This document shows, piece by piece, positions 920-58,850 of a stretch of DNA of 64,000 bases (position 1 is its first letter; each line of letters starts with the position of its first letter). The notes beneath the pieces are model-generated. The model had not been told where the DNA came from. It saw only the letters and a list, made by a program, of their open reading frames with translations, and made no database searches. The DNA is taken from the NCBI GenBank assembly GCA_001897375.1, contig MKSU01000016.1, forward strand, positions 1-64,000, written 5' to 3'. Made by a program: the position numbers and the translations under genes. This stretch comes from Sphingomonas sp. 67-36 (GTDB taxonomy: Bacteria; Pseudomonadota; Alphaproteobacteria; Sphingomonadales; Sphingomonadaceae).

Positions 920-2920
920 TCAATGGGCGAGCGCCTGCGCCAGATGCACGCGGATGTCCGGCCGGACGGGGGCCAGCGCGGCGGCCTTGCGCAGCAGCGG
1001 TGTCGCCGAAGCCGCATCGCCATCGTTGAGCATCGCCCAGCCATAGGCATCGGCGGCGGTCGGATTCATCGGCGCGAGCATATAGGCGCGGCGCGCGTAA
1101 TGGCGCGCCGTTGCCGGATCGCCGGCGCCGGTATGGGCATAAGCGAGCTGGGCGAGCAGCAGGGCATCGCGTGAGCCGACCGACCGCACCAGCCCCTCCA
1201 GCGTCTCGATCGCGGCGTCCCACTGGCGCGCGGTGAGCTGGAGGTTGGCGAGGATGCGCCGCGCGGCGATATCCTCGGGGTTCTGCGCGCGGAACAGCGC
1301 GACGGCATGCGCGCCATCGGCGACGGCGCCCGATTGCGCGGCGGCTTCGGTGAGGCGCAGGAAGGTCGGCGTATCGAAGCGCAGGTTGGCGGCGCGGACG
1401 TAAGCGGCGTAGGCGGGCGCGAACCGGCCCGAGATCGCCAGCGTATCGCCGAGCAGCATCTGCGCTGCCGGTGCGCCGGGAGAGGCGGCGGCGAGCGCTT
1501 GCGCGCGGGAGAGCGCGCCGGTCCGGTCGCCGTCCTCGATCATCGCCCGTACCAGCGGCACGATCGCGGTCGGGTCGCCGGGCGCATCGGTGGCCTGGCT
1601 GGCGAGCACCGGGACGCTGGCATCGCTGGCGAAGGGCGCGGGGCGGCCGAGCACGGGGCTGGCGGCGCGATCGAGGAAGCGCGCCGCCCAGTCCCGCTCG
1701 CCGGTCGCCTCGAAGGCGCGGCCGACGAGCGCGAGCGTATAGCTGTCCGCATCGTCGCGCAGCGCCATCGGGCGCAGCACGTCCAGCCCGCCGCGCAGGT
1801 CGCCGGAGCGCACCAGCGCCGCGCCGAGCAGGCGGCGCGCGGCGATGTTCATCGGCTGTCGCCCGACCAGCTCGTGCCACCGCGCCACCGCCTGCTCATA
1901 ATCGCCGGAGGCATAAGCGATCGCGCCGCTCAGCAGCACGACGCCGGGAACGCCATCGATCGCGCCGCCGATTTTGGCGAGCATCGCGCGCGCCAGTTCG
2001 ATCCGCCCGGCGCGCATGGCGAGCACCGCCTGGAGATAGAGCGCTTGCGGGCTGCCCGGCCGCGCGGCGAGCGCGCTGCGGGTCGCGGCCAGCATCTCGC
2101 CGTAGCGCCCGAGGTCGCCCAGCGTCGCGGCATATTCGATCAGCGCGGGATGGTAATAAGCGTCGCGCGCCAGCGCCGCCTCGAACCACGGCAATGCGGC
2201 GGCGAGGCCGTAGCGGCTGCGGACGATCTCGCCGCGCAGCGTCAGCGCGACCGGATCGGTTCGGGTCAATGCCAGCGCGCGCTGGGCGGCGGCATCCGCG
2301 CCGCCGACATCGCCTGCGTCGAGCCGGATGCGGCCGAGTGCGGTCCATGCGACGGCATCGTCGGGATGCGCGGCGAGCAGGTCGTGCAGCAGGTTGCTCG
2401 CGCCCACCACGTCGCCGCCGGCGGCGAGCGCCCGCGCGCGGACCTGTTGCAGCGCGGGCGCATCGGTTCCGGCGGTCGCGCGCAGGGCGCGGGCAGTTTC
2501 CCCCTGCCTGAGCCATGCATCGGCAAGCAGCGGACGGATCACCGCACGATCCGCGCCGGTACGCAGCGCCCGGTTGAGCGCGCCTTCCGCCGCCTCACCC
2601 TCGCCAAGCGCCAGATCGGCGCGCGCGAGCAACAGCAGCGTGTCCAGGCGGTCCGGCGAGACGGCAAGCGCGGTTTCGGCATGATGACGCGCGGCGCTGT
2701 AATTGCCGGTGGCGAAAGCGGCGGCGGCGGCCTTGGCCTCGGCGTGTGGATCGGGCGCGGCGGCGTGGCGGGCGATGGCGATGATGCCGAACACCACCGC
2801 GAGACTACCGATCCCGGCGGCACCCAGCCGCAACACCCGCGCCCATGCCGTCAGCCGGGCGCGCCGGGTCCGGCGACGCCTCCTGCGCAGCAAGGGGTAG
2901 CTCGCCGGCCCTTCAATCAT
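920..2920 (-). CDS. prsT: TPR-repeat protein, PrsT-like (PEP-CTERM system)
   Basis: The product has about 666 residues. A short basic N-terminus rich in Arg is followed by one hydrophobic segment (about residues 30–48), then continuous tetratricopeptide-type helical repeats to the end. It is probably membrane-anchored with the repeats outside the cytoplasm. Position and architecture match the TPR protein PrsT that accompanies PrsK and PrsR in exosortase/PEP-CTERM genomes. I see no lipobox, although the family is often called a lipoprotein. The ATG at 2920 overlaps the prsR stop by 8 bases, which supports this start over an upstream one inside prsR. TPR content is clear; the PrsT name rests mainly on the neighbours. 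Confidence 0.75.
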   Translation of the reverse strand: MIEGPASYPLLRRRRRRTRRARLTAWARVLRLGAAGIGSLAVVFGIIAIARHAAAPDPHAEAKAAAAAFATGNYSAARHHAETALAVSPDRLDTLLLLARADLALGEGEAAEGALNRALRTGADRAVIRPLLADAWLRQGETARALRATAGTDAPALQQVRARALAAGGDVVGASNLLHDLLAAHPDDAVAWTALGRIRLDAGDVGGADAAAQRALALTRTDPVALTLRGEIVRSRYGLAAALPWFEAALARDAYYHPALIEYAATLGDLGRYGEMLAATRSALAARPGSPQALYLQAVLAMRAGRIELARAMLAKIGGAIDGVPGVVLLSGAIAYASGDYEQAVARWHELVGRQPMNIAARRLLGAALVRSGDLRGGLDVLRPMALRDDADSYTLALVGRAFEATGERDWAARFLDRAASPVLGRPAPFASDASVPVLASQATDAPGDPTAIVPLVRAMIEDGDRTGALSRAQALAAASPGAPAAQMLLGDTLAISGRFAPAYAAYVRAANLRFDTPTFLRLTEAAAQSGAVADGAHAVALFRAQNPEDIAARRILANLQLTARQWDAAIETLEGLVRSVGSRDALLLAQLAYAHTGAGDPATARHYARRAYMLAPMNPTAADAYGWAMLNDGDAASATPLLRKAAALAPVRPDIRVHLAQALAH

Positions 2921-4259
2921 GCAGGTCGTAGCTCTTGAGCAGATCGTAGAGCGTGGGCCGGCTGATCCCAAGCAGGCGGGCGGTGTTCGAGATATTGCCG
3001 TCCGCCCGCGCCAGCGCGCGACGGATGGCGGTGCGGTCCGCCGCCTCGCGCACGGTGCGCAGGTTGATCGGCGCATCATCCGGCTCGGCGAGGTCGAGAT
3101 CGGCGGCGGAGATCAGCTTCCCGTCCGCCATGATGACGGCGCGCTTTACGCGGTTCTCCAGCTCGCGGACGTTGCCGGGCCAGCTCCAGCCGTCGATCGC
3201 GGTGCGCGCATCGGGGGCGAGGCCGGTGACGGCCGGGTTCATCGTCTTGGCGTATTTCGTCACGAAATGCCGTGCGAGCAGCGCGGCGTCGCCGGGTCGC
3301 TCGGCGAGCGAGGGGATGCGAACGACGATCTCGGCCAGCCGGTAATAGAGGTCGTCGCGGAAGCTGCCGTCCGCGACCATCGCGTCGATATCGCGGTGGG
3401 TGGCGCAGACGATGCGCGTGTCGACCGCGATCGGGCGGCGGCCGCCGATCCGCTCGATCGTGCGCTCCTGCAGGAAACGCAGCAGCTTGACCTGCAGGGG
3501 CAGGGGCACGTCGCCGATCTCGTCGAGGAACAGGGTGCCACCCTGCGCCTGCTCGATCTTGCCGGGAGTCGTCTTGACTGCGCCGGTGAACGCGCCTTTC
3601 TCGTGCCCGAACAGTTCGCTTTCGAGCAGGGTTTCGGGAATCGCGGAGCAGTTGATCGCGACGAACGCCCCGTCGCGGCGCGGCGAGGCGTCGTGGAGGC
3701 CGCGCGCGAGCAATTCCTTGCCGGTGCCGCTGGCGCCGAGCAGCATGACGGAGACATCGGCCGGCGCGACGCGCTCGATCGTGTTGATGACCTTGAGCAT
3801 TTCCGGCGCGGCCGTAATCAGCCCGGCCATCGTCGCGCCCTTCGCATTGGCCGCCAGCCGGCGGTTTTCAGCTTCCAGCTCATGCACATGGAAGGCGCGG
3901 GCGACGATCAGGCCGAGCGCGTCGATGTCGATCGGTTTCTGGTAGAAATCCCAGGCGCCGTCGGCGATCGCGCGGAGCGCGCTTTCGCGGGCGCCGTGGC
4001 CGGAGGCGACGATCACCTTCGTATCGGGCTTGAGCGCGAGGATCTCCATCAGCGTGGCGAAGCCCTCGGCGGTGCCGTCCGGATCGGGCGGCAAGCCGAG
4101 ATCGAGCGTGACGACCGCCGGCTCGTGCAGCCGGAGCGCGTCGATCGCTGCCGCGCGATCGCCAGCGACGATCACCTCATAACCGTCATAGGCCCAGCGC
4201 AACTGGCGCTGGAGGCCGATATCGTCCTCGACGATCAACAGCTTGGGACGATCGCTCAT
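2913..4259 (-). CDS. prsR: Sigma-54-dependent response regulator PrsR
   Basis: This NtrC-type activator of 448 residues has a receiver domain (phosphoacceptor Asp53 in VVTLDLGLP), an AAA+ domain and a C-terminal Fis-type helix-turn-helix. Walker A is GASGTGKE at 175–182, the sigma-54 contact loop GAFTGA is intact at 222–227, and Walker B (TLFLDEIGD) is near 242–250. The HTH contains NTARLLGISRPTLYDLL. It should activate RNA polymerase with sigma-54 at promoters of an exosortase/PEP-CTERM regulon after phosphorylation by PrsK. Its start overlaps the prsK stop (ATGA), indicating translational coupling. The family call is strong; the target genes are inferred and none is recognisable in this window. 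Confidence 0.9.
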   Translation of the reverse strand: MSDRPKLLIVEDDIGLQRQLRWAYDGYEVIVAGDRAAAIDALRLHEPAVVTLDLGLPPDPDGTAEGFATLMEILALKPDTKVIVASGHGARESALRAIADGAWDFYQKPIDIDALGLIVARAFHVHELEAENRRLAANAKGATMAGLITAAPEMLKVINTIERVAPADVSVMLLGASGTGKELLARGLHDASPRRDGAFVAINCSAIPETLLESELFGHEKGAFTGAVKTTPGKIEQAQGGTLFLDEIGDVPLPLQVKLLRFLQERTIERIGGRRPIAVDTRIVCATHRDIDAMVADGSFRDDLYYRLAEIVVRIPSLAERPGDAALLARHFVTKYAKTMNPAVTGLAPDARTAIDGWSWPGNVRELENRVKRAVIMADGKLISAADLDLAEPDDAPINLRTVREAADRTAIRRALARADGNISNTARLLGISRPTLYDLLKSYDLHD

Positions 4260-6313
4260 GCCGCCTGCTCCAGTTCACCGGCGGCGCGCAGCGTCACACG
4301 GAAGCGCGTGCCTTCGCCCGCCCGGCTTTCCACCGACACCGCGCCGCCCATCGCCTCGGCAAGCTGCCGCGCCTCGAACGCGCCCAGCCCGAAGCCGCCT
4401 TCCTTGCCCGAGACGAAGGGCTTGAACAGCCGGTCCCGCACGAACGCCGGGGACATGCCGCAGCCCCGATCGATCACCTCCACCGCCACCTGCCGCGATT
4501 CGGGCAAGACGACGATGTTCAGGGTAACGGGGGCGTTCGCGGCGCTTGCCTCGATCGCGTTCTGGACGAGGTGGCCGAGCAATGTCTCCAGCCCGGCCGC
4601 ATCGGCCACCGCCACGGCATCCGCCGTGCCGCCTACCGCGACCGGATGCTGCGCGCGCCGCGCTGTCGCGATCCGTTCCGCCAGCGGGCGCAGCGGCACC
4701 GCGCGCAACGCCTCGCCGCGCCCGCCGTGATGCTGCGACAGCCGCGCCAGCAGGGTGTTCATCCGCTGCGACGAATCGCGCAGCGTCTCCACCATGTCGG
4801 CGCGGAAGGCGGGATTGTCGGCGTGGCGCTCGGCGTTGCGCGCGAGCAGGGTGAGCTGGCTCACCAGATTCTTGAGATCGTGCATGATGAAGGCGAAACG
4901 GCGGTTGAACTCGTCGAAGCGCTGCGCGTCGGCGAGCGCGTCATGCGCGCGGTCCTCGGCGAGATAGCTCGCCACTTGCTGCCCGGCGACGCCGAGCAGG
5001 TCGAAATCCTCCCAGTCCAGCGCGCGATCGAGCGGCGGCCGGGCAAGCACCAGCGCGCCGGTCAGCAGGTCGAAATGGATCAACGGAACGACCGCCCACG
5101 CATCGGCGCGTCCGGTCAGCCATGCCGGGGTAGCGTCGCGGTCGGTCGCCGGCGCAGACCCGTCTCGTACCGCGTCAAGCTCGATGATGCGCCGCGTTCC
5201 CGCGAGATGGGCGTGGAGCGCTGCGTTGGCGTCGGGCGGATCCGCGCCGCCGGCATCGCCGGGCCAGTTCCATCCCGCGCCGCGCTCGAGTGCGCCCTCG
5301 CGCGCGACGAGCAGCAGGCCGGCCGGCGAATCGGTCACGTCCGCCACCGCCTTCACCACGCGCACCGCCAGCGGCGCGGCGCCGTCGCCTGGCGAGCCGA
5401 GTGTTTCGTTGAAGCGCAGCCATTCGGCGCGATAGTCATAGCGGTGCGCGAACAGATGCTTGGCGACCAGCACCTTGGTCGATGCGCGCAGCCATGGGGT
5501 CGAGACGATGGTGAGCAGCGCGGCGGCGGTGCCGAAGACGAATGCGGTCTGCACCATCCGCGCACGGTTGCCGCCCAGCTCGGCGACGAAGCCGGCCGCC
5601 AGCCCGACGATCATGATATAGGCGGCAATCAGCACGGTCGAGAGGAGCACGAAGGCAAGGCGACGCGAAAGCTGCAACCGCCCGTCGCCGTCTCGATGCA
5701 GTACTGCGCCGAACAGCAGCGCGACCGCGACCGTCCCCAGCCCGCGCGCGGCGGAGAGGATCGCGCCGCGCTCGCCGCCCAGCCAGCCATCGACCTGAAG
5801 CGGCAAATCGAGCGCGAACAGCAACGACAGCGCCAGTGCGACGATGCGCACGCCGCCGCGCGCGGTCGAGGCCTGTATCCGGTAGAGCAGCAGCAGCGTG
5901 GCGAGCGTCGCCAGCATCCGCAGCGTCAGCCGCGCGGGATCGATCAGCGCCGTCGCCGCATCCTGCTCCGCAGCCGCTTCCGCCACCCCTAGCGTCATGG
6001 CGAGCGCCGTGACCAGCGCACAGATGAGGCAGAGCGCGGCCAGCCAGCGCGTGCCGCCGCGCGCATCGCGGCGAGCGAGCGCATAGATGAAGCCGAGCCA
6101 CACGAGATTGCGCAGGCCCTCCGCCAGCCGCGTCGCGACGTCGCCCGATCCGATCCCGGCCACGGCCAGCGCCCACAGGGCGGTCGCGCCGAGCGCTGCC
6201 ACCAGCGGGACGGCGGGCAGGCCGCCGCGCTGCCGCCGCATCTGGCCGAGCGCCAGCGCGCCGAACAGCAACGCCGCGAGCGCGTAGCTCCACAGGATCA
6301 TCGACGGCGGCAT
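4256..6313 (-). CDS. prsK: Membrane sensor histidine kinase PrsK
   Basis: The 685-residue kinase opens with a long polytopic region (roughly eight hydrophobic segments within residues 5–275), followed by a GAF-like domain (about 310–450) and a kinase core. The H-box reads FAFIMHDLKNL with His478. The ATPase domain keeps an N-box (LVQNAIEAS), a G1 box (DRGCGMS) and a glycine-rich G2 segment (GGFGLGAFEA). This arrangement is typical of the PEP-CTERM system kinase PrsK. It presumably phosphorylates PrsR, whose gene overlaps its 3' end. The ATG at 6313 follows the sugar transferase stop by one base (TGACATG). An internal ATG at 6301 is a possible alternative start. The signal sensed is unknown. 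Confidence 0.88.
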   Translation of the reverse strand: MPPSMILWSYALAALLFGALALGQMRRQRGGLPAVPLVAALGATALWALAVAGIGSGDVATRLAEGLRNLVWLGFIYALARRDARGGTRWLAALCLICALVTALAMTLGVAEAAAEQDAATALIDPARLTLRMLATLATLLLLYRIQASTARGGVRIVALALSLLFALDLPLQVDGWLGGERGAILSAARGLGTVAVALLFGAVLHRDGDGRLQLSRRLAFVLLSTVLIAAYIMIVGLAAGFVAELGGNRARMVQTAFVFGTAAALLTIVSTPWLRASTKVLVAKHLFAHRYDYRAEWLRFNETLGSPGDGAAPLAVRVVKAVADVTDSPAGLLLVAREGALERGAGWNWPGDAGGADPPDANAALHAHLAGTRRIIELDAVRDGSAPATDRDATPAWLTGRADAWAVVPLIHFDLLTGALVLARPPLDRALDWEDFDLLGVAGQQVASYLAEDRAHDALADAQRFDEFNRRFAFIMHDLKNLVSQLTLLARNAERHADNPAFRADMVETLRDSSQRMNTLLARLSQHHGGRGEALRAVPLRPLAERIATARRAQHPVAVGGTADAVAVADAAGLETLLGHLVQNAIEASAANAPVTLNIVVLPESRQVAVEVIDRGCGMSPAFVRDRLFKPFVSGKEGGFGLGAFEARQLAEAMGGAVSVESRAGEGTRFRVTLRAAGELEQAA

Positions 6314-6314
6314 G

Positions 6315-7703
6315 TCACCGCGCGCCGGCGGGCCAGAGCACCACCCGCAAGGTCTGGAGCAGGATCAGCAGATCTAGGAACGGCGAATAGTTCTTCGCGT
6401 AATAAAGATCGTATTCCAGCTTGTTGCGGGCGTCGTCTATTGACGCGCCGTAAGGATAGTTGATCTGCGCCCAGCCGGTGATGCCGGGTTTCACCATATG
6501 GCGCTCAGCGTAATAAGGCAGTTCGCGTTCGAGATCGGCGACGAATTGTGGGCGTTCCGGGCGCGGGCCGACGAAGCTCATCTCGCCCTTCAGCACGCTC
6601 CAGCATTGCGGCAGTTCGTCGATCCGCACCTTGCGGATGAAGCGCCCGACGCGCGTGACGCGCGGATCGCGCTCCGCCGCCCATATCGCATTGCCGCCTG
6701 CCTCGGCGTCCTGCCGCATCGAGCGGAGCTTTGGAATCTCGAATGTCTGGTTGAACAGCCCGACGCGGCGCTGCCGGTAGAAGGCCGGTCCCTTGCTCTC
6801 CAGCCGGATCGCGAGCGCGGTGAGCAGGATCACCGGCAGCGCGACGATCAGCAGCAGCAGGCTGACGATCACGTCGAAGGCGCGCTTGACGATCGCGGTG
6901 AGCATCCGCCCGGAGGAGAAACCCTCGGTGAAGATGAGCGAGGAGGGATTGACCGTCTGGAGATCGATGCGACCTGTTTCGCGTTCGAGAAAGGCGGAGA
7001 ATTCGTTGACCTGCACCCCCGTCGTGCGGACGCGCAGCAGATCCTTGAGCGGCAGGGCGTTGCGACGCTCCTCGATCGCCAGCACGACTTCCGACGCCTT
7101 CAGGTGGACGACATGATCGGCGAGGTTGTGGATCGCGTCGCGCGCGATCGCCTGCGGCACCAGCGCCTCCGGCTCGCCCATCGCGACATAGCCGACGATG
7201 ACGAAGGTCGATCCGGGCGTCCGCTCAAGCCGCTCCAGCCGCGCCGCGCGCCCGCCCGCGCCGAGCACGACGATACGGCGCTTGAACCGCTCGCCGCCGA
7301 GCAGGCCGCCGAACAGCACGCGCACCAGCACCAGCCCGGCGATCGCGAACAGCATCGCGTAGAACAGATTAGACCGCCAGAACGTCAGCGACGGCATCAG
7401 GAAGAAGAGTAGCGCGAGGAACAGAACGCCGAGCGACACCGCCACCATCAGCCGCATCGCCGCCTGGCGGATCGAGACGAGCACGTCGGCCTGATAGGCG
7501 CCGACCGCCACCATCGCGATCATCAGCGGGCCGGCGAAGCTGACGAGCTGGGGCAGGCGGGTCCATACCGATCCCACCGCGATCCCGATCTGCCACGCGC
7601 GCACTTCCCACCCCGCTTCGGCGGCGGCGAGCAGCAGCAGCACGTCGAGCAAGCCAAGCAGCAGCACCGCATTGGGCACGTAATGCTTGAAAACCCTGAT
7701 CAT
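6315..7703 (-). CDS. Polyprenyl-phosphate sugar-1-phosphate transferase, exosortase-associated
   Basis: This 462-residue membrane enzyme starts a polysaccharide repeat by moving a sugar-1-phosphate from a nucleotide sugar to a polyprenyl phosphate carrier. The N-terminal half has four hydrophobic segments and a Rossmann-like CoA-binding fold ([12 protein letters not shown]). The C-terminal half is the bacterial sugar transferase domain, with [10 protein letters not shown], the PKLRSMR segment, DELPQ and FVGPRPERP motifs, and a GITGWAQI end. This matches the PEP-CTERM/XrtA-associated family (TIGR03013). It heads the leftward operon with prsK. The ATG at 7703 gives the family's usual length; longer upstream reading has no hydrophobic or conserved content. 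Sugar specificity cannot be read from the sequence. Confidence 0.88.
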
Positions 7704-7854
7704 TCCCGCGCTGTCCGATCGTGCGTGTAAGTTTCTCCGACAGGTGATCGCAGGAAATGGCAAATAAAGGCTGAAGGCGACGACAGGTGGATCGAACCGT
7801 TGCGATCGGCGGTTCTCCTTGCGATGAGGAACCTTGAGGAATTTGGAGAGCCGA

Positions 7855-8907
7855 ATGCACGTTGCTTCGCCGATCGTACCAGTGATCCTGTCCGGCGGCG
7901 CGGGGACGCGGCTGTGGCCGATGTCGCGGCCGGAAATGCCCAAGCAGATGCTGGCGCTCACCGCCGAGCTGACGATGCTCCAGCTCACCGCGTCGCGCGC
8001 GCATGACGATCGTTTCGCCGCGCCCGTGGTGGTGGCGAGCGCGGCACATGCCGATCTGGTCGAGCAGCAACTGGAGGCGATCGACCAGCCCGCGCAGCTG
8101 CTGATCCTCGAGCCGGCGGGACGCAACACCGCGCCGGCGATCGCGCTCGCCGCATTGGCGGTGGAGGACAAGGCGTCCGCGCTGCTCGTCATGCCGTCCG
8201 ATCACGTCATCGCCGATGTCGCTGCCTTCCATGCCGCGATCGCCGTCGCGATGCCGCTGGTGGAGGAGGGGTGGCTCATCACCTTCGGCATCGCGCCGGA
8301 CGCGCCGGAAACGGGCTACGGCTATATCCGCGCCGGCGAGGAGATCGCGCCCGGCGTCCATCGCGTCGACCGTTTCGTGGAGAAGCCGCCGCTGGAAAGC
8401 GCGCGGGCGATGCTGGAATCGGGCGACCATGTGTGGAATGGCGGCATCTTCCTGTTCCGCGCCGACGCCTATCTCGACGCACTCGCCGCGTTCGAGCCGG
8501 AGATGACCGGGGCGGTGACCCGCGCGATGGCCGGCGCGCGTCGCGACGGCGCGCGGGTGACGCCCGACGCGGAAGCATTCGCGAGCGCCCGGGCCGAATC
8601 GATCGATTATGCCGTGATGGAGCGCGCGTCGCGCGTCGCGGTGGTGCCGGTGGCGATGGGCTGGAACGACGTGGGAAGCTGGGACGCGCTCCACGCGATC
8701 AGCGCGCACGACGAGGCGGGCAATGCGATCCACGGCGAGGTGATCGCGCTCGACACCACCGATTGCCTCGTGCGCAGCGACGGCGCGCGCGTCGCGATGG
8801 TCGGGGTGCGCGACCTGATCGTCGTGGCGAGCGGCGACGACATCCTGATCCTGCCGCGCGGGCGCGGGCAGGACGTGAAGAGACTGCTGGAGGCGATGAA
8901 GGGGTGA
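7855..8907 (+). CDS. Mannose-1-phosphate guanylyltransferase
   Basis: The enzyme makes GDP-mannose from mannose-1-phosphate and GTP, supplying activated mannose (and fucose or rhamnose derivatives) for surface polysaccharide. The nucleotidyltransferase signature ILSGGAGTRLWPMSR and PEMPKQ sit within the first 30 residues. EPAGRNTAPA, the VMPSDH metal site and FVEKP follow in the expected order. The protein is about 350 residues and lacks the C-terminal phosphomannose isomerase cupin found in long ManC/AlgA proteins. The ATG at 7855 has GGAGAG six bases upstream, better than the in-frame ATG at 7834. It is divergent from the sugar transferase–prsK operon across about 150 bases, which suggests a shared polysaccharide role. 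Confidence 0.9.
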   Translation: MHVASPIVPVILSGGAGTRLWPMSRPEMPKQMLALTAELTMLQLTASRAHDDRFAAPVVVASAAHADLVEQQLEAIDQPAQLLILEPAGRNTAPAIALAALAVEDKASALLVMPSDHVIADVAAFHAAIAVAMPLVEEGWLITFGIAPDAPETGYGYIRAGEEIAPGVHRVDRFVEKPPLESARAMLESGDHVWNGGIFLFRADAYLDALAAFEPEMTGAVTRAMAGARRDGARVTPDAEAFASARAESIDYAVMERASRVAVVPVAMGWNDVGSWDALHAISAHDEAGNAIHGEVIALDTTDCLVRSDGARVAMVGVRDLIVVASGDDILILPRGRGQDVKRLLEAMKG

Positions 8908-33067: not shown

Positions 33068-34486
33068 GTGGCAACCGTTCTCGATCGCCCGACCACTGAT
33101 TACGTCATCAAGGATATCGCGCTCGCCGATTTCGGCCGCAAGGAAATCGAGATCGCCGAGACGGAGATGCCCGGGCTGATGGCGCTGCGCGAGGAATTCG
33201 GCGCGTCTCGGCCGCTGAAGGGCGCGCGCATCACCGGATCGCTGCACATGACGATCCAGACGGCGGTGCTGATCGAGACGCTCGTTGCGCTGGGCGCCGA
33301 CGTGCGCTGGGCGACCTGCAACATCTTCTCGACGCAGGACCATGCCGCCGCCGCCATCGCAGCCGCCGGTATCCCGGTGTTCGCGGTGAAGGGCGAGAGC
33401 CTTGCCGAATATTGGGATTATGTCGGCTCGATCTTCGACTGGGATGACGGCAACGGGAAGACCGCCAACATCATCCTCGACGACGGCGGCGACGCCACGA
33501 TGTTCGCGCTGTGGGGTGCGAAGCTGGAGCGCGGCGAGCAGTTCGGCGAGCCGGAAAATGCCGAGGAAGTGGAGTTCCAGCGCGCGCTCAAGGCGTTCAT
33601 CGCGAAGAAACCGGGCTATCTCACCGAGACGGTGAAGAACCTGAAGGGCGTTTCGGAGGAAACCACCACCGGCGTCCACCGGCTCTACGAGATCGCCAAG
33701 AAGGGCGAACTGCCGTTCCCGGCGATCAACGTGAACGATTCGGTCACCAAGTCGAAGTTCGACAACCTCTATGGCTGCAAGGAATCGCTCGTTGATGCGA
33801 TCCGCCGCGCGACCGACGTGATGCTGGCCGGCAAGGTCGCCTGCGTCGCGGGCTTCGGCGACGTGGGCAAGGGCTCGGCCGCGTCGCTGCGCAATGGCGG
33901 CGCGCGCGTGCTCGTCACCGAGATCGACCCGATCTGCGCGCTCCAGGCGGCGATGGAGGGCTATGAAGTGGTGACGATGGAGGAGGCGGTGAAGCGCGCC
34001 GACATCTTCTGCACCGCCACCGGCAACGCCGACGTCATCACCGCCGATCACATGAAGGCGATGAAGCCGATGGCGATCGTCTGCAATATCGGCCACTTCG
34101 ACAGCGAGATCCAGATCGCCGCGCTTTCGAACTACGAGTGGACCGAGGTGAAGCCGGGCACCGATCTCGTGAAATTCCCGGACGGCAAGCAGATCATCGT
34201 GCTCGCCAAGGGCCGCCTCGTGAACCTCGGCTGCGCCACCGGCCATCCCTCGTTCGTCATGTCCTCGTCCTTCACCAACCAGACGCTCGCGCAGATCGAG
34301 CTTTGGACCAAGAGCGGCGAGTATGAGAACAAGGTCTACGTCCTGCCGAAGCACCTCGACGAGAAGGTTGCGGCGCTGCACCTCGAGAAGCTGGGCGTGA
34401 AGCTCAGCAAGCTCAGCCAGAAGCAGGCGGACTATATCGGCGTGAAGGTCGAGGGGCCGTTCAAGCCCGATCATTATCGTTACTGA
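33068..34486 (+). CDS. ahcY: Adenosylhomocysteinase
   Basis: AhcY hydrolyses S-adenosylhomocysteine to adenosine and homocysteine, removing the product inhibitor of methyltransferases. The 472-residue protein shows all hallmarks: [13 protein letters not shown], the [15 protein letters not shown] segment, [13 protein letters not shown] with the catalytic Lys/Asp, the NAD-binding motif [11 protein letters not shown] and the C-terminal KPDHYRY that closes the partner's cofactor site. The start is GTG, with GGAG seven bases upstream. A perfect 20-bp palindrome lies upstream and an intrinsic terminator follows, so ahcY is probably transcribed alone, although divL starts 112 bases later in the same direction. 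Confidence 0.97.
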
Positions 34487-34598: not shown

Positions 34599-36935
34599 AT
34601 GATCGAGATTTCGACCGCCGCCGCGCTGGCCGTTGGTGCGGCCGTCGCGCTGCTGCTGTTCGCCGGCGCGTGGCTGCTATTCGCCGGATTGCGCGCGACG
34701 GCCGGGGCGCGGGCCACGGGCGCGGTCAATGCGCGTTACGAGGCGCTGCTGCGCACGGCGCCGGCATCGCCGATCATCGCTTATGGCGACGGGCGGCTCG
34801 AGCTGAACGCTACCGTTGCGGGCTGGCTGGGCGTCGAGGGGTTGCCGGGGCGGATCGACGAGCTTGCGGGCGTGTTGCCGGCGGAGACGATCGCCGCGCT
34901 CAAGAGCGATATCGCCGCCGCGCAACGCGCCGGTCGGGGCTTCGCGCGGGCGATGACGCTCCCCGGATCGTCGCGGACGCTGCTGTGGCGCGGCGAGCGC
35001 GGGCCGCAGGAGATGGGCGGCGCGGTCGTCGTCTGGGTGTTCGACGCCACCGACAGCCAGCGCGAGATCGCGCAACTCACCGCGCAGAAGGACGAGTTGC
35101 AGGACGCGTTCGAGGCGCTGACCAGCCTGATCGAGACCGCGCCGCTGCCGATGTGGTATCGCGGGCCGGACCTGAAGCTGGCGATGGCCAATACCGCCTA
35201 TGTCGCGGCGGTCGAGGCGGCGGACGCGGCGGACGTGGTGGCGCGCGGACTGGAGCTGGTCGAAGGCTCCGGGCAGGGCGGGCCGCTCGGCGGCGCCGTG
35301 GCAGCGCGCGAGCTGGGACGGCCGCAAGAGCGCGTGCTGCCCGCGACGATCGGCGGCGAGCGGCGCTCGCTCAGGCTCCATGATATCCCGCTGCCGAGCG
35401 GGGGCGTCGCCGGCTATGCGATCGACATCGAGGATCTGGAGCAGGCCCATGCACGCGAGCGGCGCTTCGCCGAAGCGCAGCGCGCGCTGCTCGACCGGCT
35501 TTCGGCCGGGGTGGCGCAATTCGGGCGCGATCGCGCGCTCGCTTTCTGCAACCAGCCGTTCCGCCGCATGTTCGCGATGCGCAGCGAATGGCTCGCCGAC
35601 CGCCCCGAGTTCGATCGCGTGCTGGAGCGGATGCGCGAGGCGAATCGCGTACCCGAAGTGCGCGACTTCCCCGGCTGGAAGGCGGAACGGCGCGACTGGT
35701 TCACGCAGGACGGCGCGTTCGAGGAGACGTGGCTGCTGCCCGATGGCGCGCATATCCGCGTGCTGGTTCAGCCACTGCCGGATGGCGGCCTGCTGTTGAT
35801 CTTCGAGGACCGGACGGAGCAGGTGCAGCTTGCCTCCGCGCGCGACACCCTGCTGCGCGTGCGCACCGCCACCTTCGACAACCTGTTCGAAGCGCTGGGC
35901 GTCTTCGCCACCAACGGCAAGTTGCAATTGTGGAACAACCGCTTCCGCGCCCTTTGGGGGCTGGAGGAGGAATTCCTCAGCGGCCATCCGCGCGTCGACG
36001 CGGTGGCGGAGAAGGTCGCCGCGAAGCTCGCCAATCCGGGGCAGGCGCGGTTCATCAACGAACTGGTCCGCGCCGCCACCGTCGAGCGGCAGACCCGCAG
36101 CGGGCGGGTCGATCTCGCGGACGGGCGGCATTTCGAGTTCGCGGCGGTGCCGTTGCCGGACGGCAATGCGCTGTTCACGATGCTCGACATCACCGACAGC
36201 CGCCGCATCGAGCAGGCGCTGCGCGAGCGCACCGAGGCGCTGGAGAAGGCCGACCGCACCAAGACCGCCTTCGTCGCCAGCATGAGCTACGAATTGCGCA
36301 CGCCGCTCACCTCGATCAGCGGCTTCGCGGAGATGCTGCACGGCGGCTATGCCGGCAAGCTCACGAAACAGGCCGACGCCTATGTCGAGGCGATCCTCGA
36401 ATCGGTCGAGCGGCTGGGCGTGATGATCGACGACGTGCTCGATCTGACGCAGGCGGCGGACGAGGGCGAGGCGCTGGAGCGGGACGATATCGACCTCGCC
36501 GCGATCGCACGCGCGGCGGCGGATCGCCTCGCGCCGCAGGCCAGGAAGGACGGGATCGATTACGTTGTGGAGATCAGCCATTCGATCGGCCGGATCACCG
36601 GCGACGCACGGCGTATTCGCGAGGTGATCGAGCATCTGCTGCGCCACGCAATCGGCGCGGCCGGGAAGGACGGCCGGGTGTTGCTTCACGCGGACGGCAA
36701 TGCCGGCGCGGCGCGGATCGTGGTGTCGGACGACGGGCCGGGGATGGACGCGGAAGCCATGGCCCATGCCTTCGACCGCTTTCCCCGGCCGGGCATCGCC
36801 AGCGGCGGGGAGCGCGCGCTCGATCTCGGCCTGCCGCTCGCCAGGCAGTTCGTCGAGGCGCATCGCGGCACGATCGAGTTGCTCAGCGAGCCGGGCGAGG
36901 GCACGCTGGTCACGGTGGAACTGCCGCGGCGATGA
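34599..36935 (+). CDS. divL: DivL-like PAS protein, histidine-kinase homologue with Tyr in the H-box
   Basis: The 778-residue membrane protein has one N-terminal helix (about residues 6–30), three or four PAS-like sensor domains (about 45–150, 170–275, 285–400, 415–530), a HisKA-type dimerisation helix and an ATPase-like domain. The H-box reads FVASMSYELRTPLTSI: residue 564 is Tyr where His accepts phosphate, as in Caulobacter DivL (Tyr550). The ATPase part keeps G1 (DDGPGMD), but its N-box lacks the key Asn (HLLRHAIGA) and its G2 box is degenerate (RALDLGLPL). It is probably a non-kinase regulator of CckA that reads DivK. The stop overlaps tsaE as ATGA. The gene order ahcY–divL–tsaE supports the identification. 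Confidence 0.88.
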   Translation: MIEISTAAALAVGAAVALLLFAGAWLLFAGLRATAGARATGAVNARYEALLRTAPASPIIAYGDGRLELNATVAGWLGVEGLPGRIDELAGVLPAETIAALKSDIAAAQRAGRGFARAMTLPGSSRTLLWRGERGPQEMGGAVVVWVFDATDSQREIAQLTAQKDELQDAFEALTSLIETAPLPMWYRGPDLKLAMANTAYVAAVEAADAADVVARGLELVEGSGQGGPLGGAVAARELGRPQERVLPATIGGERRSLRLHDIPLPSGGVAGYAIDIEDLEQAHARERRFAEAQRALLDRLSAGVAQFGRDRALAFCNQPFRRMFAMRSEWLADRPEFDRVLERMREANRVPEVRDFPGWKAERRDWFTQDGAFEETWLLPDGAHIRVLVQPLPDGGLLLIFEDRTEQVQLASARDTLLRVRTATFDNLFEALGVFATNGKLQLWNNRFRALWGLEEEFLSGHPRVDAVAEKVAAKLANPGQARFINELVRAATVERQTRSGRVDLADGRHFEFAAVPLPDGNALFTMLDITDSRRIEQALRERTEALEKADRTKTAFVASMSYELRTPLTSISGFAEMLHGGYAGKLTKQADAYVEAILESVERLGVMIDDVLDLTQAADEGEALERDDIDLAAIARAAADRLAPQARKDGIDYVVEISHSIGRITGDARRIREVIEHLLRHAIGAAGKDGRVLLHADGNAGAARIVVSDDGPGMDAEAMAHAFDRFPRPGIASGGERALDLGLPLARQFVEAHRGTIELLSEPGEGTLVTVELPRR

Positions 36936-37378
36936 TCCGGCTGGCCGATCCGGCGGCGACCGAGGCGGTTGGCGCGTCGCTCGCCGCCGTGCTGGCGCCG
37001 GGCGACGTGGTGACGCTCGACGGCCCGCTCGGGGCGGGCAAGACGAGCATCGCGCGCGGGCTGCTCGCCGCGCTGGGGCTGGCGGGGGAAGCGCCGTCGC
37101 CGAGCTTCGCGATCGTCCAGCCTTATGCACCGCCCGAGGTGCGGCTGCCGGTACTGCACGTCGATCTCTACCGCATCGACGATCCGGGCGAGATGGAGGA
37201 GCTGGGGCTGGACGAGGCGCGTCATGATTCCGCGCTGCTGATCGAATGGCCGGAGCGCGCCGGGCCGTACGCCTGGCCCGATGCGTTGCGGCTCAGGCTG
37301 GAGATATTGCCGGACGGCGCGCGCGGGTTGACTTGGGCCGCGCCCCCGGCTTGGGAGCGGCGATGGCGACCGACATGA
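36932..37378 (+). CDS. tsaE: tRNA threonylcarbamoyladenosine biosynthesis ATPase TsaE
   Basis: TsaE is the ATPase partner of TsaB/TsaD in forming t6A at position 37 of ANN-decoding tRNAs. The 148-residue protein has the P-loop GPLGAGKTS at 31–39, the PSPSFAIVQPY switch-like segment, and the conserved VDLYRIDD and LLIEWPER motifs. Its ATG overlaps the divL stop (ATGA), and the amgK gene starts 15 bases before its stop, so it is embedded in a tightly coupled run. tsaB and tsaD are not in the window. Confidence 0.94.
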   Translation: MIRLADPAATEAVGASLAAVLAPGDVVTLDGPLGAGKTSIARGLLAALGLAGEAPSPSFAIVQPYAPPEVRLPVLHVDLYRIDDPGEMEELGLDEARHDSALLIEWPERAGPYAWPDALRLRLEILPDGARGLTWAAPPAWERRWRPT

Positions 37379-38343
37379 TTCCCCCCGCCGGCGCAGCCGC
37401 CTTCCTCGCCGCGAACGGCTGGGCGGGGGCGGAGATTTCGCCGCTGGCGGGCGATGCCTCCTTCCGACGCTATTTCCGGGTGCGCCTCGGCGAGCGGCGC
37501 GGCGTGCTGATGGACGCGCCGCCGCCGCACGAGGACCCGCGCCCGTTCATCGCGATCGCGCGCTGGCTGGGCGAGCGCGGCTTCTTCGCACCGGTAATCC
37601 ACGCGGCGGACGAGGTGGCGGGTCTCGTGCTAATCGAGGATTTCGGAGACGCGCGGATGCGCGAGGCGATCGAAAGCGATCCCGACGCGGCGATGCGGCT
37701 CTATGGCGAGGCGATCGATGTTTTGGTCGCGCTGCGCGGGCACGAGGCGATGGCGGGGTTGCGGCCCTATGACCTCGCCGAGTTGCAGCGCGAGGCGGGG
37801 CTGCTGGTCGAATGGTACTGCCCCGCGATCGGGCTGGAAGTGGATGCCGACGGCTATCGCGCGGCGTGGGACAAGGTGCTGGCGCGCGCGATCCCCGAAC
37901 GGGCGGTGACGGTGCTGCGCGACTATCACGTCGAGAATCTGATGCTGATCCCGGCCGGGCTGGGGCTGCTCGATTTCCAGGACGCGCTGGCGGGGCATGC
38001 CGCCTATGATCTCGTTTCGCTGTTGCAGGATGCGCGGCGCGACGTGGAGCCGTCGATCGAGGAGGCGATGCTCGTCCGCTACCGCGCCGCGACTGGCGAG
38101 GGCGAGGCGTTCCTCGATGCCTATCATGTGCTGGGCGCGCAGCGGAACGCGAAGATCGTCGGCATCTTCACCCGGCTGTGGAAGCGCGACGGCAAGCCGC
38201 GCTACCCGGCGCTGTGCCCGCGCGTCTGGGCCTATCTGGAGCGCGATCTGACCTATCCGGCGCTCGGCCCGGTCGCGGCGTGGTTCGACGAGAATATCCC
38301 GCCCGAATTGCGCGGCGACCCGATGGTGCTGGCAGGACGATGA
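37363..38343 (+). CDS. amgK: Aminoglycoside-phosphotransferase-fold sugar kinase AmgK
   Basis: AmgK phosphorylates N-acetylmuramate or N-acetylglucosamine at the anomeric position in peptidoglycan recycling. The 326-residue protein has the APH fold, with a nucleotide-binding segment GDASFRRYFRV (30–40), a catalytic loop DYHVENLML (187–195) and metal-binding LDFQD (203–207). Its identity as AmgK rather than a generic phosphotransferase rests on the following murU gene, which is coupled by ATGA overlap. The ATG at 37363 has GGGAG upstream and overlaps tsaE by 16 bases. An ATG at 37375, overlapping the tsaE stop, is an alternative. Confidence 0.85.
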   Translation: MATDMIPPAGAAAFLAANGWAGAEISPLAGDASFRRYFRVRLGERRGVLMDAPPPHEDPRPFIAIARWLGERGFFAPVIHAADEVAGLVLIEDFGDARMREAIESDPDAAMRLYGEAIDVLVALRGHEAMAGLRPYDLAELQREAGLLVEWYCPAIGLEVDADGYRAAWDKVLARAIPERAVTVLRDYHVENLMLIPAGLGLLDFQDALAGHAAYDLVSLLQDARRDVEPSIEEAMLVRYRAATGEGEAFLDAYHVLGAQRNAKIVGIFTRLWKRDGKPRYPALCPRVWAYLERDLTYPALGPVAAWFDENIPPELRGDPMVLAGR

Positions 38344-56611: not shown

Positions 56612-58177
56612 TCAGCCGCGATCCGCCAGCGGCAGGTGCACGACGAAGCGCGCGCCGCTCAGGCGGTCCTTGCGGTCCTGCACCTCGATCATCCCCTGAT
56701 GCCCTTCCACGATCGTTCGCGCGATGGCGAGGCCGAGGCCCGAATGCTGGCCGAACGCCTCGCTGTGCGGACGAATCGACTGGAAGCGGCGGAACACCGC
56801 CTCGCGCGCATCCTCCGGCACGCCGGGGCCTTCGTCCTCCACCACCACCTCCAGCTCGCCGTCGAGCGGGCGCGCGGCGATCGCGATCAGCCCGCCGTCC
56901 GGGGAAAAGGAGAGGGCATTGTCGATCAGATTCTCGAACACCCGTTCCAGCCGCGCGCCCTCGCCGGAAACGACGAGGCGTTCCCCGGCGGGCCGGTCGA
57001 AGCGGATGCGCACCCCGCGCTCGATCCCGCGCTCGCGCCGCTGCGTGACCATCCCCTCGATCATCGTGCCGACGTCCACCGGCTCGAACTTGGCGCGGCT
57101 GAGCTGCGCGTCGAGCCGCGAGGCCTCCGAGATATCGGTGATGAGTCGGTCGAGCCGGTGGACGTCCTCGCGCACGATCGACAGCAGCCGCTCCTGCAAT
57201 TCCGGGTCCTTTACATGGCCGAGGCCATCGACCGCCGAGCGGAGCGAGGCGAGGGGGTTCTTCAGTTCGTGCGTCACGTCCGCCGCAAACGCCTCGGTCG
57301 CGTCGATACGCGCGCGCAATGCGAGGCTCATGTCCGATAGCGCGCGGGCGAGCATCCCGATCTCGTCCTTGCGCGCGGGGAGGCGCGGCACCACCACCTC
57401 GCGCGCCCGGCCCAGCCTGACACGAACCGCCGCGCGCGCCAGCCGCCGCAGCGGGCGGACGATCGTCCGCGCGAGGAACAGCGAGACGAGGATGGAGACG
57501 ATCGTCACCGTCAGCAGCACCAGGCTGAGGCGATAGCGCTCCACCCGCACCGTCTGCGTGATGTCGCGCGCGTTGACCGCCGTCATCACCGCCGCGCCGT
57601 CCAGCATCGGCGCGGCGGCGGTGATGACCGGCGTGCGGTCCGGCGCGCGCCACACGGTCGCGGCGGCATGGCCGGATTGCGCGGTGCGCACGTCGGGCCA
57701 GTCGTGCCCCTCGTTATGCTCGCGGTAGAGCGGTGCGCGCACCGCGCCGACCACGGTGTCGATTCCGGCGTCGAGGAAGCGCGCGATGCGCTGCCCGCTG
57801 TCGTCCTTGTCGGGATCGAGGAGCTGGAAGTTGCGTTTGCCGAGCGCGCGGCTGTCCACGATCAGCTTGCCGTCCGGCGCGAACAGGCGGATGCGCGTGC
57901 CGGTATCCTGCGCGAGCTGGACGATCAGCGGATCGCGCAGCTTCGGCGTCACGGTCTGCAACGCCTCCGCGATCAGCCGCGCCTCGCGCATCGCCTGCTC
58001 GGTGCGGTTGTCGAGGATGCGGACGCGATACGAATCGAGGTAGAAGAATCCTCCGGCCAGCAGCAGCAGCGCGAAGATGTTCACCGCAAGAATGCGGCGG
58101 GTCAGCGAAACCCGGCCGGACCAGCGCAGCGCGAGATCGCTGCCCTCACTCCTCGGAGAAACGGTATCCGGCGCCAT
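56612..58177 (-). CDS. chvG: Sensor histidine kinase ChvG
   Basis: The 521-residue kinase has membrane segments near residues 28–48 and 230–255 flanking a large periplasmic domain, then HAMP, and a kinase core with H-box [16 protein letters not shown] (quoted in part; His near 310). N-box [11 protein letters not shown]1 EDEGPGVP and G2 HSGLGLAIA are intact. ChvG/ChvI (ExoS/BvgS-related naming varies) controls envelope stress, acid response and polysaccharide in alphaproteobacteria. The chosen ATG (58177) overlaps the last 32 bases of chvI. The gene leads into the PTS genes, linking surface stress with carbon regulation. Confidence 0.93.
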
Positions 58178-58850
58178 AGAGCGTCTCGATAGCGTCGAAT
58201 TCGGGATCGACCTCGCGGAATTTACGCCGCACCCGCTTGATATGCGAGTCGATGGTGCGGTCGTCGACGTAGATGTCGTCCTGATAGGCCGCATCCATGA
58301 GCTGGTTGCGGGTGCGGACGATGCCGGGGCGCTGGGCGAGCGTCTCGAGGATAAGGAACTCCGTGACGGTCAGGGTGACGGATTCGCCGCCCCAGGTGAC
58401 GCGGTGACGCGCAGGGTCCATCACCAGCCGCCCGCGCTCCAGCGGCCCCTGCGCTTCCGCTTCCGCCCCGTCGGGCGCCTGCGTCAGTTCGGCGCGGCGC
58501 AGGATGGCGCGGATGCGCGCGATCAGCAGGCGCTGGCTGAACGGCTTGGCGATATAATCGTCCGCCCCCATCGCGAGGCCGAGCGCCTCGTCCAACTCGT
58601 CGTCCTTGCTGGTGAGGAAGATCACGGGAATCTGGCTCTTCTCGCGCAGCCGGCGGAGCAACTCCAGCCCGTCCATCCGCGGCATCTTGATGTCGAAGAT
58701 GGCGAGATCGGGCGGGTTGTCGATCAGCGCTTTCAACGCGGTCTCCCCATCCGAATAGACACGGGTGAGGAAGCCCTCGGTCTGAAGCGCGATCGAGACC
58801 GAAGTGAGGATGTTCCGGTCGTCGTCGACGAGCGCGATCGTTGCCGTCAT
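58146..58850 (-). CDS. chvI: Response regulator ChvI
   Basis: The 234-residue OmpR-family regulator has a receiver domain (VDDD acidic pocket, phosphoacceptor Asp in [12 protein letters not shown], Lys in AKPF) and a winged helix ending in [30 protein letters not shown] (quoted in part), which is very characteristic of ChvI. It is the first gene of the leftward chv–PTS operon and is divergent from pckA across 140 bases. In Agrobacterium and Sinorhizobium the chvI and pckA genes are also neighbours, so this arrangement is ancestral. Confidence 0.95.

Follow-up and report, generated by a model that had tools for sequence, protein, structure and literature searches.

A predicted DivL pseudokinase of Sphingomonas with a nearly genus-wide altered ATP site and a conserved helix pair for putative DivK docking

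The window, meaning the whole 64,000-nucleotide stretch of Sphingomonas sp. 67-36 DNA that was analyzed, contains an open reading frame that on sequence grounds encodes the DivL orthologue of Sphingomonas. DivL is a membrane-bound pseudokinase with several PAS domains that belongs to the CckA-ChpT-CtrA pathway; in Caulobacter it is essential and regulates CckA. The ATP site of the predicted protein is altered, whereas the DHp helix pair and DivK are kept, and we consider it probable that the DHp-CA block acts as an ATP-independent receptor for phosphorylated DivK (DivK~P), through which CckA is controlled.

The divL reading frame is open and intact and starts with ATG, and the gene order in its neighborhood is ahcY-divL-tsaE, the names of both neighbors being our assumption (Table 1). 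Pfam matches were found for PAS_7, PAS_4, HisKA, and HATPase_c, together with a match for PAS_8. The AlphaFold model, built from 60 sequences (mean pLDDT 85, pTM 0.36), folds into an N-terminal helix, four PAS-like domains with boundaries set by eye from the secondary structure, a DHp helix pair, and a CA domain, whose ATP lid at residues 730 to 741 is of low confidence; the arrangement of the domains in the model is unreliable because the pTM is low. The start of the N-terminal helix is presumed to be a membrane anchor, judging by eye from its hydrophobicity. A putative anchor and several PAS domains thus precede the DHp-CA core, which is the DivL layout, as we take Caulobacter DivL to consist of a membrane anchor and a PAS array in front of its core.

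Table 1. Coordinates of divL, its domains and motifs, and the neighboring genes in the window
Feature	Position	Strand	Remarks
ahcY (S-adenosylhomocysteinase)	33068..34486	+	Upstream neighbor; start approximate; name presumed
divL	34599..36935	+	Predicted 778-aa DivL pseudokinase: putative N-terminal membrane helix, four PAS, DHp, CA
Long N-terminal helix	34614..34757	+	Residues 6-53; AlphaFold model
Four PAS-like domains	34764..36188	+	About residues 56-149, 185-276, 304-404, 432-530
DHp (HisKA) helices	36231..36458	+	Residues 545-620
Tyr564 codon TAC	36288..36290	+	Replaces phosphoacceptor His; equivalent to Caulobacter Tyr550
CA (HATPase_c) domain	36471..36932	+	Residues 625-778
Codon 683	36645..36647	+	N-box His
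G1 box D711-x-G713-x-G715	36729..36743	+	Kept
G2 box D742-L-G744 for G-x-G	36822..36830	+	First Gly replaced by Asp
tsaE-like ATPase gene	36932..37378	+	Start overlaps divL stop by 4 nt (ATGA); name presumed
amgK-like sugar kinase gene	37363..38343	+	Best NCBIfam match AmgK, below cut-off; start by eye

Among PDB sequences, the protein matches Caulobacter DivL best (PDB ID 4q20, E value 3.7e-38), followed by the kinase HK853 (E value 3.7e-24). A tree was built from 56 kinase cores, with a bootstrap that was not quite settled; a branch supported at 99/96 separates 38 DivL-like sequences including 4q20 from 17 other kinases of the same genome and HK853, with Caulobacter DivJ and PleC outside the set. 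The Foldseek search with the full-length model gave long multidomain structures at the top ranks and 4q20_B at rank 9 (TM-score by target 0.78, 36% identity), which has the highest target-normalized TM-score and identity among the 50 hits listed. The identity as DivL, which the earlier note had proposed from the Tyr motif, is supported by these matches, by the kinase-core fold, and by the tree. A grouping with ordinary PAS histidine kinases, which the note had named as evidence against DivL, is not seen among the kinases that the tree covers.

The H-box reads SMSYELRTPL, which is standard except for the Tyr at the position of the phosphoacceptor His. In the N-box, VIEHLLRHAIGAAG, the Asn is replaced by His683, whereas the G1 box (VVSDDGPGMD) is intact and the F-box is kept. 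These three states of the H-, N-, and G1 boxes agree with the earlier note, which had also described the G2 box as lacking its GxG; here the G2 box is ERALDLGLPLA, in which the first Gly is indeed lost (Asp742) but the second one (Gly744) is kept, so that this wording was slightly too strong. The complete set of N-, G1, F-, and G2 boxes that Caulobacter DivL retains is therefore not found in this protein, with the N-box Asn replaced by His and the G2 GxG changed to DxG. An active HisKA kinase has both a phosphoacceptor His and an N-box Asn, and neither is present. Judging from these motifs, Tyr564 rules out the usual route of phosphotransfer, and the loss of the N-box Asn and of the first G2 Gly should disable catalysis further. 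The N-box Asn and the two G2 Gly residues are present in each of the 17 other histidine kinase cores compared from the same genome (out of 18 other matches), and the motif loss is therefore not a background trait of the genome. A sequencing error behind the motif changes is unlikely, as the Tyr is found in all 74 genus homologues examined, and L020, L021, L022, and L047 share both His683 and Asp742.

The motif survey covered 252 homologues, composed of 74 from the same genus (101 genus genomes searched, with 73 of the proteins reaching the CA domain), 130 from the remaining genera of the family (every match outside the genus in the family genome search), and 48 from the class (the best scoring of 81 other class genomes with a match). 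The H-box Tyr is found in 74/74 genus proteins, in 127/127 family proteins with a DHp (three have none), and in 44/48 class proteins, where the exceptions are two His, one Val, and one Ser; it is an ordinary DivL trait. An ordinary PAS histidine kinase that gained its Tyr by chance would agree with the NCBIfam search, where the 25 best of 70 matching families are all generic kinase models that score well under their own cut-offs, with no DivL model among these 25. The Tyr counts, the PDB ranking, and the branch separating the DivL-like sequences from the kinases included in the tree (without Caulobacter DivJ and PleC) refute this explanation, leaving it a negligible probability.

The N-box Asn is found in none of the 73 genus proteins (71 His, 2 Phe), compared with 121/130 in the other family genera and 45/48 in the class. 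In family proteins of other genera that lack the Asn, the position is occupied by R, I, L, E, V, G, or H, while in the sampled genus His683 is 97% uniform, above 75% of the CA columns. The G1 Asp is present in 73/73, 124/130, and 48/48 proteins, respectively, and Asp711, Gly713, and Gly715 of the G1 box are fully uniform in the genus, where the F-box is conserved in 70/73. The first G2 Gly remains in 59/73 genus proteins, the others having 8 Asp, 3 Gln, 2 Ala, and 1 Ser, and outside the genus it is present in 118/128 family proteins with a residue at this position and in 46/48 class proteins. In the DHp, Thr571 is invariant in the genus (74/74), and position 567 has 70 Arg and 4 Lys. The closest relatives of the window's protein (L020, L021, and L022) share the G2 change, and His683 together with Asp742 is found in these three and in L047.

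A separate collection of 80 named loci, which is unusable for Tyr counts because its search patterns included the Tyr motif, gave at position 683 34 His, 4 Asn, and 2 Arg among the 40 loci with at least 60% identity, versus 35 Asn, 4 His, and 1 Phe among the 40 below 60%. The loss of the N-box Asn is thus a near-universal Sphingomonas trait, which is not absolute because 4/40 of these close relatives keep the Asn (L375, L379 S. asaccharolytica, L384 S. turrisvirgatae, and L386), and the G2 change is rarer within the genus than the N-box loss. The degradation of the ATPase site described in the earlier note is real, and it is a trait of the genus, not of this strain alone.

Two class-level homologues inside the DivL branch, L099 (from genome G339) and L336 (from G287), have His in place of the Tyr and intact ATP-site motifs and are possibly active or ancestral-like DivL proteins. 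Sphingomonas-type divL genes were also found in records named Arthrobacter sp. TPD3018 (L356, 67% identical) and Microvirga sp. SRT01 (L371, 65% identical), which are probably mislabeled or contaminated assemblies.

The genome encodes DivK on contig C13 (C13:124379-124738), matching Caulobacter DivK with an E value of 1.3e-34, with PleD as the next match (9.7e-19). CtrA (contig C9) and CckA (contig C16, an 805-residue frame) are present as well, recognized by what we take to be their signature motifs. DivK was found in 98/101 genus genomes and in 88/88 of the near-complete ones, the three negative genomes being only 82 to 86% complete. For Sphingomonadales, the available text of Brilli et al. 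2010 (PMC2877005) describes degeneration or loss of DivJ-PleC-DivK together with a divK-like gene, which might suggest that DivK was lost from the present genome; as DivK was found, this was rejected. In the sister species genome G048, which is one of these 88 and whose DivL is 97% identical, the DivK match covers only residues 54 to 120 in a 101-residue frame, which is either a damaged gene or an assembly error.

DivL and DivK were searched in the same set of 149 family genomes. DivK matches under an E value of 1e-25 were found in 127 of them, with the weaker matches of G209 (4.8e-18) and G224 (9.8e-18) counted as absent. A DivL match at an E value of 1e-50 is missing in 17 genomes, which yield weak kinase matches only, and in 13 of these synteny indicates gene loss, as ahcY and tsaE are found with unrelated genes or almost nothing between them. 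G236 has DivK and, between ahcY and tsaE, a leftover stretch of 84 residues from the DivL CA domain that includes the G1 and G2 motifs (L174, about 6139-6393, minus strand). Three further genomes (G113, G145, and G224), in which no DivK was counted, have at the same ahcY-tsaE locus a DivL with the same PAS part as in Sphingomonas, but unlike the Sphingomonas protein it lacks the H-box segment and ends in a CA remnant without the G1 Asp.

When G215, whose locus runs off the contig, and G192 and G242, where ahcY was not found, are left out, 146 resolved family genomes remain, in which DivL is gone or DHp-less in 16/21 genomes without DivK versus 1/125 with DivK (Fisher p 4e-16, a value that overstates independence because the genomes are related and only about five DivK losses are involved). 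These loss events were counted by eye on a weakly supported tree of 49 genomes (AhcY, TsaE, and AmgK), with many weak nodes and with AhcY recovered for only 30 entries. A DHp-bearing DivL without DivK occurs in G117, G122, G156, G157, and G182, of which G122 and G182 are only 66 to 67% complete. The coupling of DivL and DivK in the family is not absolute, because G117, G156, and G157 keep the DHp without DivK and G236 shows the opposite.

Changes at the ATP-site residues (683, 711, 713, 715, 742, or 744) are present in all 73 sampled genus members and in 14/122 DivK-bearing family proteins outside the genus, and since the latter have DivK, a change of the ATP site does not need DivK loss. All 122 keep Tyr564. 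In the class sample, 69 genomes have both DivL and DivK, 14 only DivL, 4 only DivK, and 55 neither (p 4e-21), at thresholds (E values of 1e-30 for DivL and 1e-20 for DivK) under which some matches may be other PAS kinases or receivers.

Eight family genomes without DivL and DivK (G103, G120, G163, G172, G196, G205, G233, and G239) have a CckA match of 49 to 58% identity in a frame of 520 to 594 residues; the frames of the other 13 genomes with a CckA match have 775 to 992 residues, and the CckA proteins of the eight look as though their N-terminal sensor region had become shorter. Their CtrA has diverged too, with 61 to 68% identity. In G209, G138, G113, and G212, CckA and CtrA gave no match at the thresholds used, and DivK gave only the weak match of G209; these four may have lost the entire CtrA pathway. 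G128, the other sampled member of the genus of G209, has CckA, CtrA, and DivK.

Selection on the domains was estimated by comparing the window's protein with its three closest relatives (L020 to L022), giving omega values of 0.107 to 0.148 for the CA domain, 0 to 0.085 for the DHp, 0.02 to 0.09 for PAS2-4, and 0.18 to 0.23 for PAS1. Versus five more distant genus members, the values are 0.30 to 0.41 (CA), 0.23 to 0.67 (DHp), and 0.49 to 0.99 (PAS1). In pairwise comparisons, where the pairs within each group are not independent, the CA omega has a median of 0.35 and a maximum of 1.00 in the genus (1252 pairs) versus 0.32 and 0.86 in other genera (243 pairs), the dN ratio of CA to PAS2-4 is 1.84 versus 1.54, that of DHp to PAS2-4 is 0.99 versus 0.72, and the median dN in the genus is 0.167 for the DHp and 0.168 for PAS2-4. 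By these estimates, the DHp and CA are under slightly looser constraint in the genus than in other genera, yet far from neutral, and their faster change in the genus than elsewhere, measured against PAS2-4, fits some relaxation of the whole block. A pseudogene was rejected, given the open frame and the low CA omega versus close relatives.

For the receptor function that we favor, DivK~P would dock on the DHp around Tyr564, Arg567, and Thr571, the docking change would travel through the PAS array to the balance of CckA kinase and phosphatase activity, and the DHp-CA block would be kept as a receptor without a need for ATP. The analysis shows the orthology, the motif states, the presence of DivK, CckA, and CtrA in the genome, the constraint on the DHp and CA, and the co-occurrence of the DHp with DivK, whereas the binding of DivK~P, the control of CckA, and the direction of the signal are what we infer from Caulobacter. 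Caulobacter DivL acts neither as a kinase nor as a phosphatase; its DHp binds DivK~P, its binding of TNP-ATP is weak (57 uM), and its crystals show no nucleotide (PMC4211667). It shares with the Sphingomonas protein the H-box Tyr and the DHp-CA core, and of the presumed docking residues R567, T571, F576, and Y595, the Arg and Thr are identical in both, while Phe576 and Tyr595 replace Caulobacter Tyr562 and His579, so that two of the four differ.

The earlier note had suggested that the protein may be nothing more than a PAS-based scaffold, with a vestigial DHp and CA and the PAS array alone acting on CckA. The altered ATP-site residues would agree with this, as would the three sphingomonads without a DHp, the greater freedom of DHp and CA relative to PAS2-4 in the genus, and the DivL proteins of Rhodobacterales that, in the available text of PMC9430884, exist as PAS domains only. 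However, the DHp does not outpace PAS2-4 within the genus, the CA omega is well below 1 versus close relatives, the G1 box, Tyr564, and Thr571 are invariant, Arg567 is at most exchanged for Lys, DivK is retained, and G236 is the single DivK-bearing resolved family genome in which the DHp is missing. A scaffold of this kind is further disfavored because sphingomonads without DivK usually lose the DHp or the whole gene, and we regard it as rather improbable.

Nucleotide binding may survive in Sphingomonas DivL, because G1 is invariant and the F-box and His683 are nearly so in the genus. The CA domain could then bind an adenine nucleotide allosterically, without Mg-dependent catalysis, which would explain the retained G1 and F-boxes and the uniformity of His683, as random decay should leave mixed residues like those at the Asn losses elsewhere in the family. 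On the other hand, TNP-ATP binding is already weak in Caulobacter DivL and its crystals lack nucleotide, G2 varies in the genus, the G1 residues are maybe kept for folding, and among the named close relatives four keep the Asn and two have Arg, so that we consider nucleotide sensing unlikely. It is quite doubtful that the pocket was retuned, with the N-box His and G1 binding an adenine nucleotide, another ligand, or a metal noncatalytically, which would make DivL a metabolite sensor gating the DivK~P input to CckA. The ATP-independent receptor for DivK~P therefore remains our preferred explanation of the DHp-CA block.

The DivL family, its Tyr, and a DivL-DivK coupling are already known from other alphaproteobacteria. 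As far as the available text of PMC4211667 goes, Caulobacter DivL keeps all histidine kinase boxes, and this is a trait of the Caulobacter protein and not of the family, because short DivL proteins without any kinase domain are described in the available parts of the literature. A DivL without a kinase domain accompanies the absence of DivK in the portion of Brilli et al. (PMC2877005) available to us. For Rhodobacterales, the available text of PMC9430884 proposes that DivK loss preceded a degenerate and then a short DivL. The short, PAS-only DivL of Rhodobacterales, with a degenerate kinase part in some early lineages, likewise shows decay of this part (PMC9430884 and PMC2877005, as far as available), but there the decay goes with DivK loss, whereas Sphingomonas retains both DivK and the DHp and shows the alteration at the ATP site alone. 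CtrA, the end point of the pathway, is dispensable in Sphingomonas melonis according to the accessible part of PMC8116508. The genus-wide N-box change and the co-loss of DivL and DivK in sphingomonads were not found reported in the accessible parts of the open-licence literature.

The reuse of a kinase as a receiver has been studied well in DivL (PMC4211667), and the evidence on whether the CA domain of DivL needs ATP comes, as far as we have seen, mainly from one species. The sphingomonads provide a natural dissection, in which the ATP site changes with DivK and the DHp kept, while a loss of DivK is usually accompanied by that of the DHp or of the entire gene. Sphingomonas thereby separates the ATP-site change from the loss of DivK and the docking helix, which are coupled in Rhodobacterales as far as the available sources show, and the family offers graded natural variants of DivL, from intact through N-box His, N-box plus G2, and DHp-less to absent.

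Elsewhere in the window, the minus strand of positions 920-8192 carries genes of XrtA/PEP-CTERM exopolysaccharide regulation, with a PEP-CTERM response regulator, a PrsK kinase, and a glycosyltransferase above the NCBIfam cut-offs and a PrsT-like protein below. A ChvG-like kinase (the best NCBIfam match, below cut-off) adjoining an OmpR-type regulator is found at positions 56612-58850, also on the minus strand.
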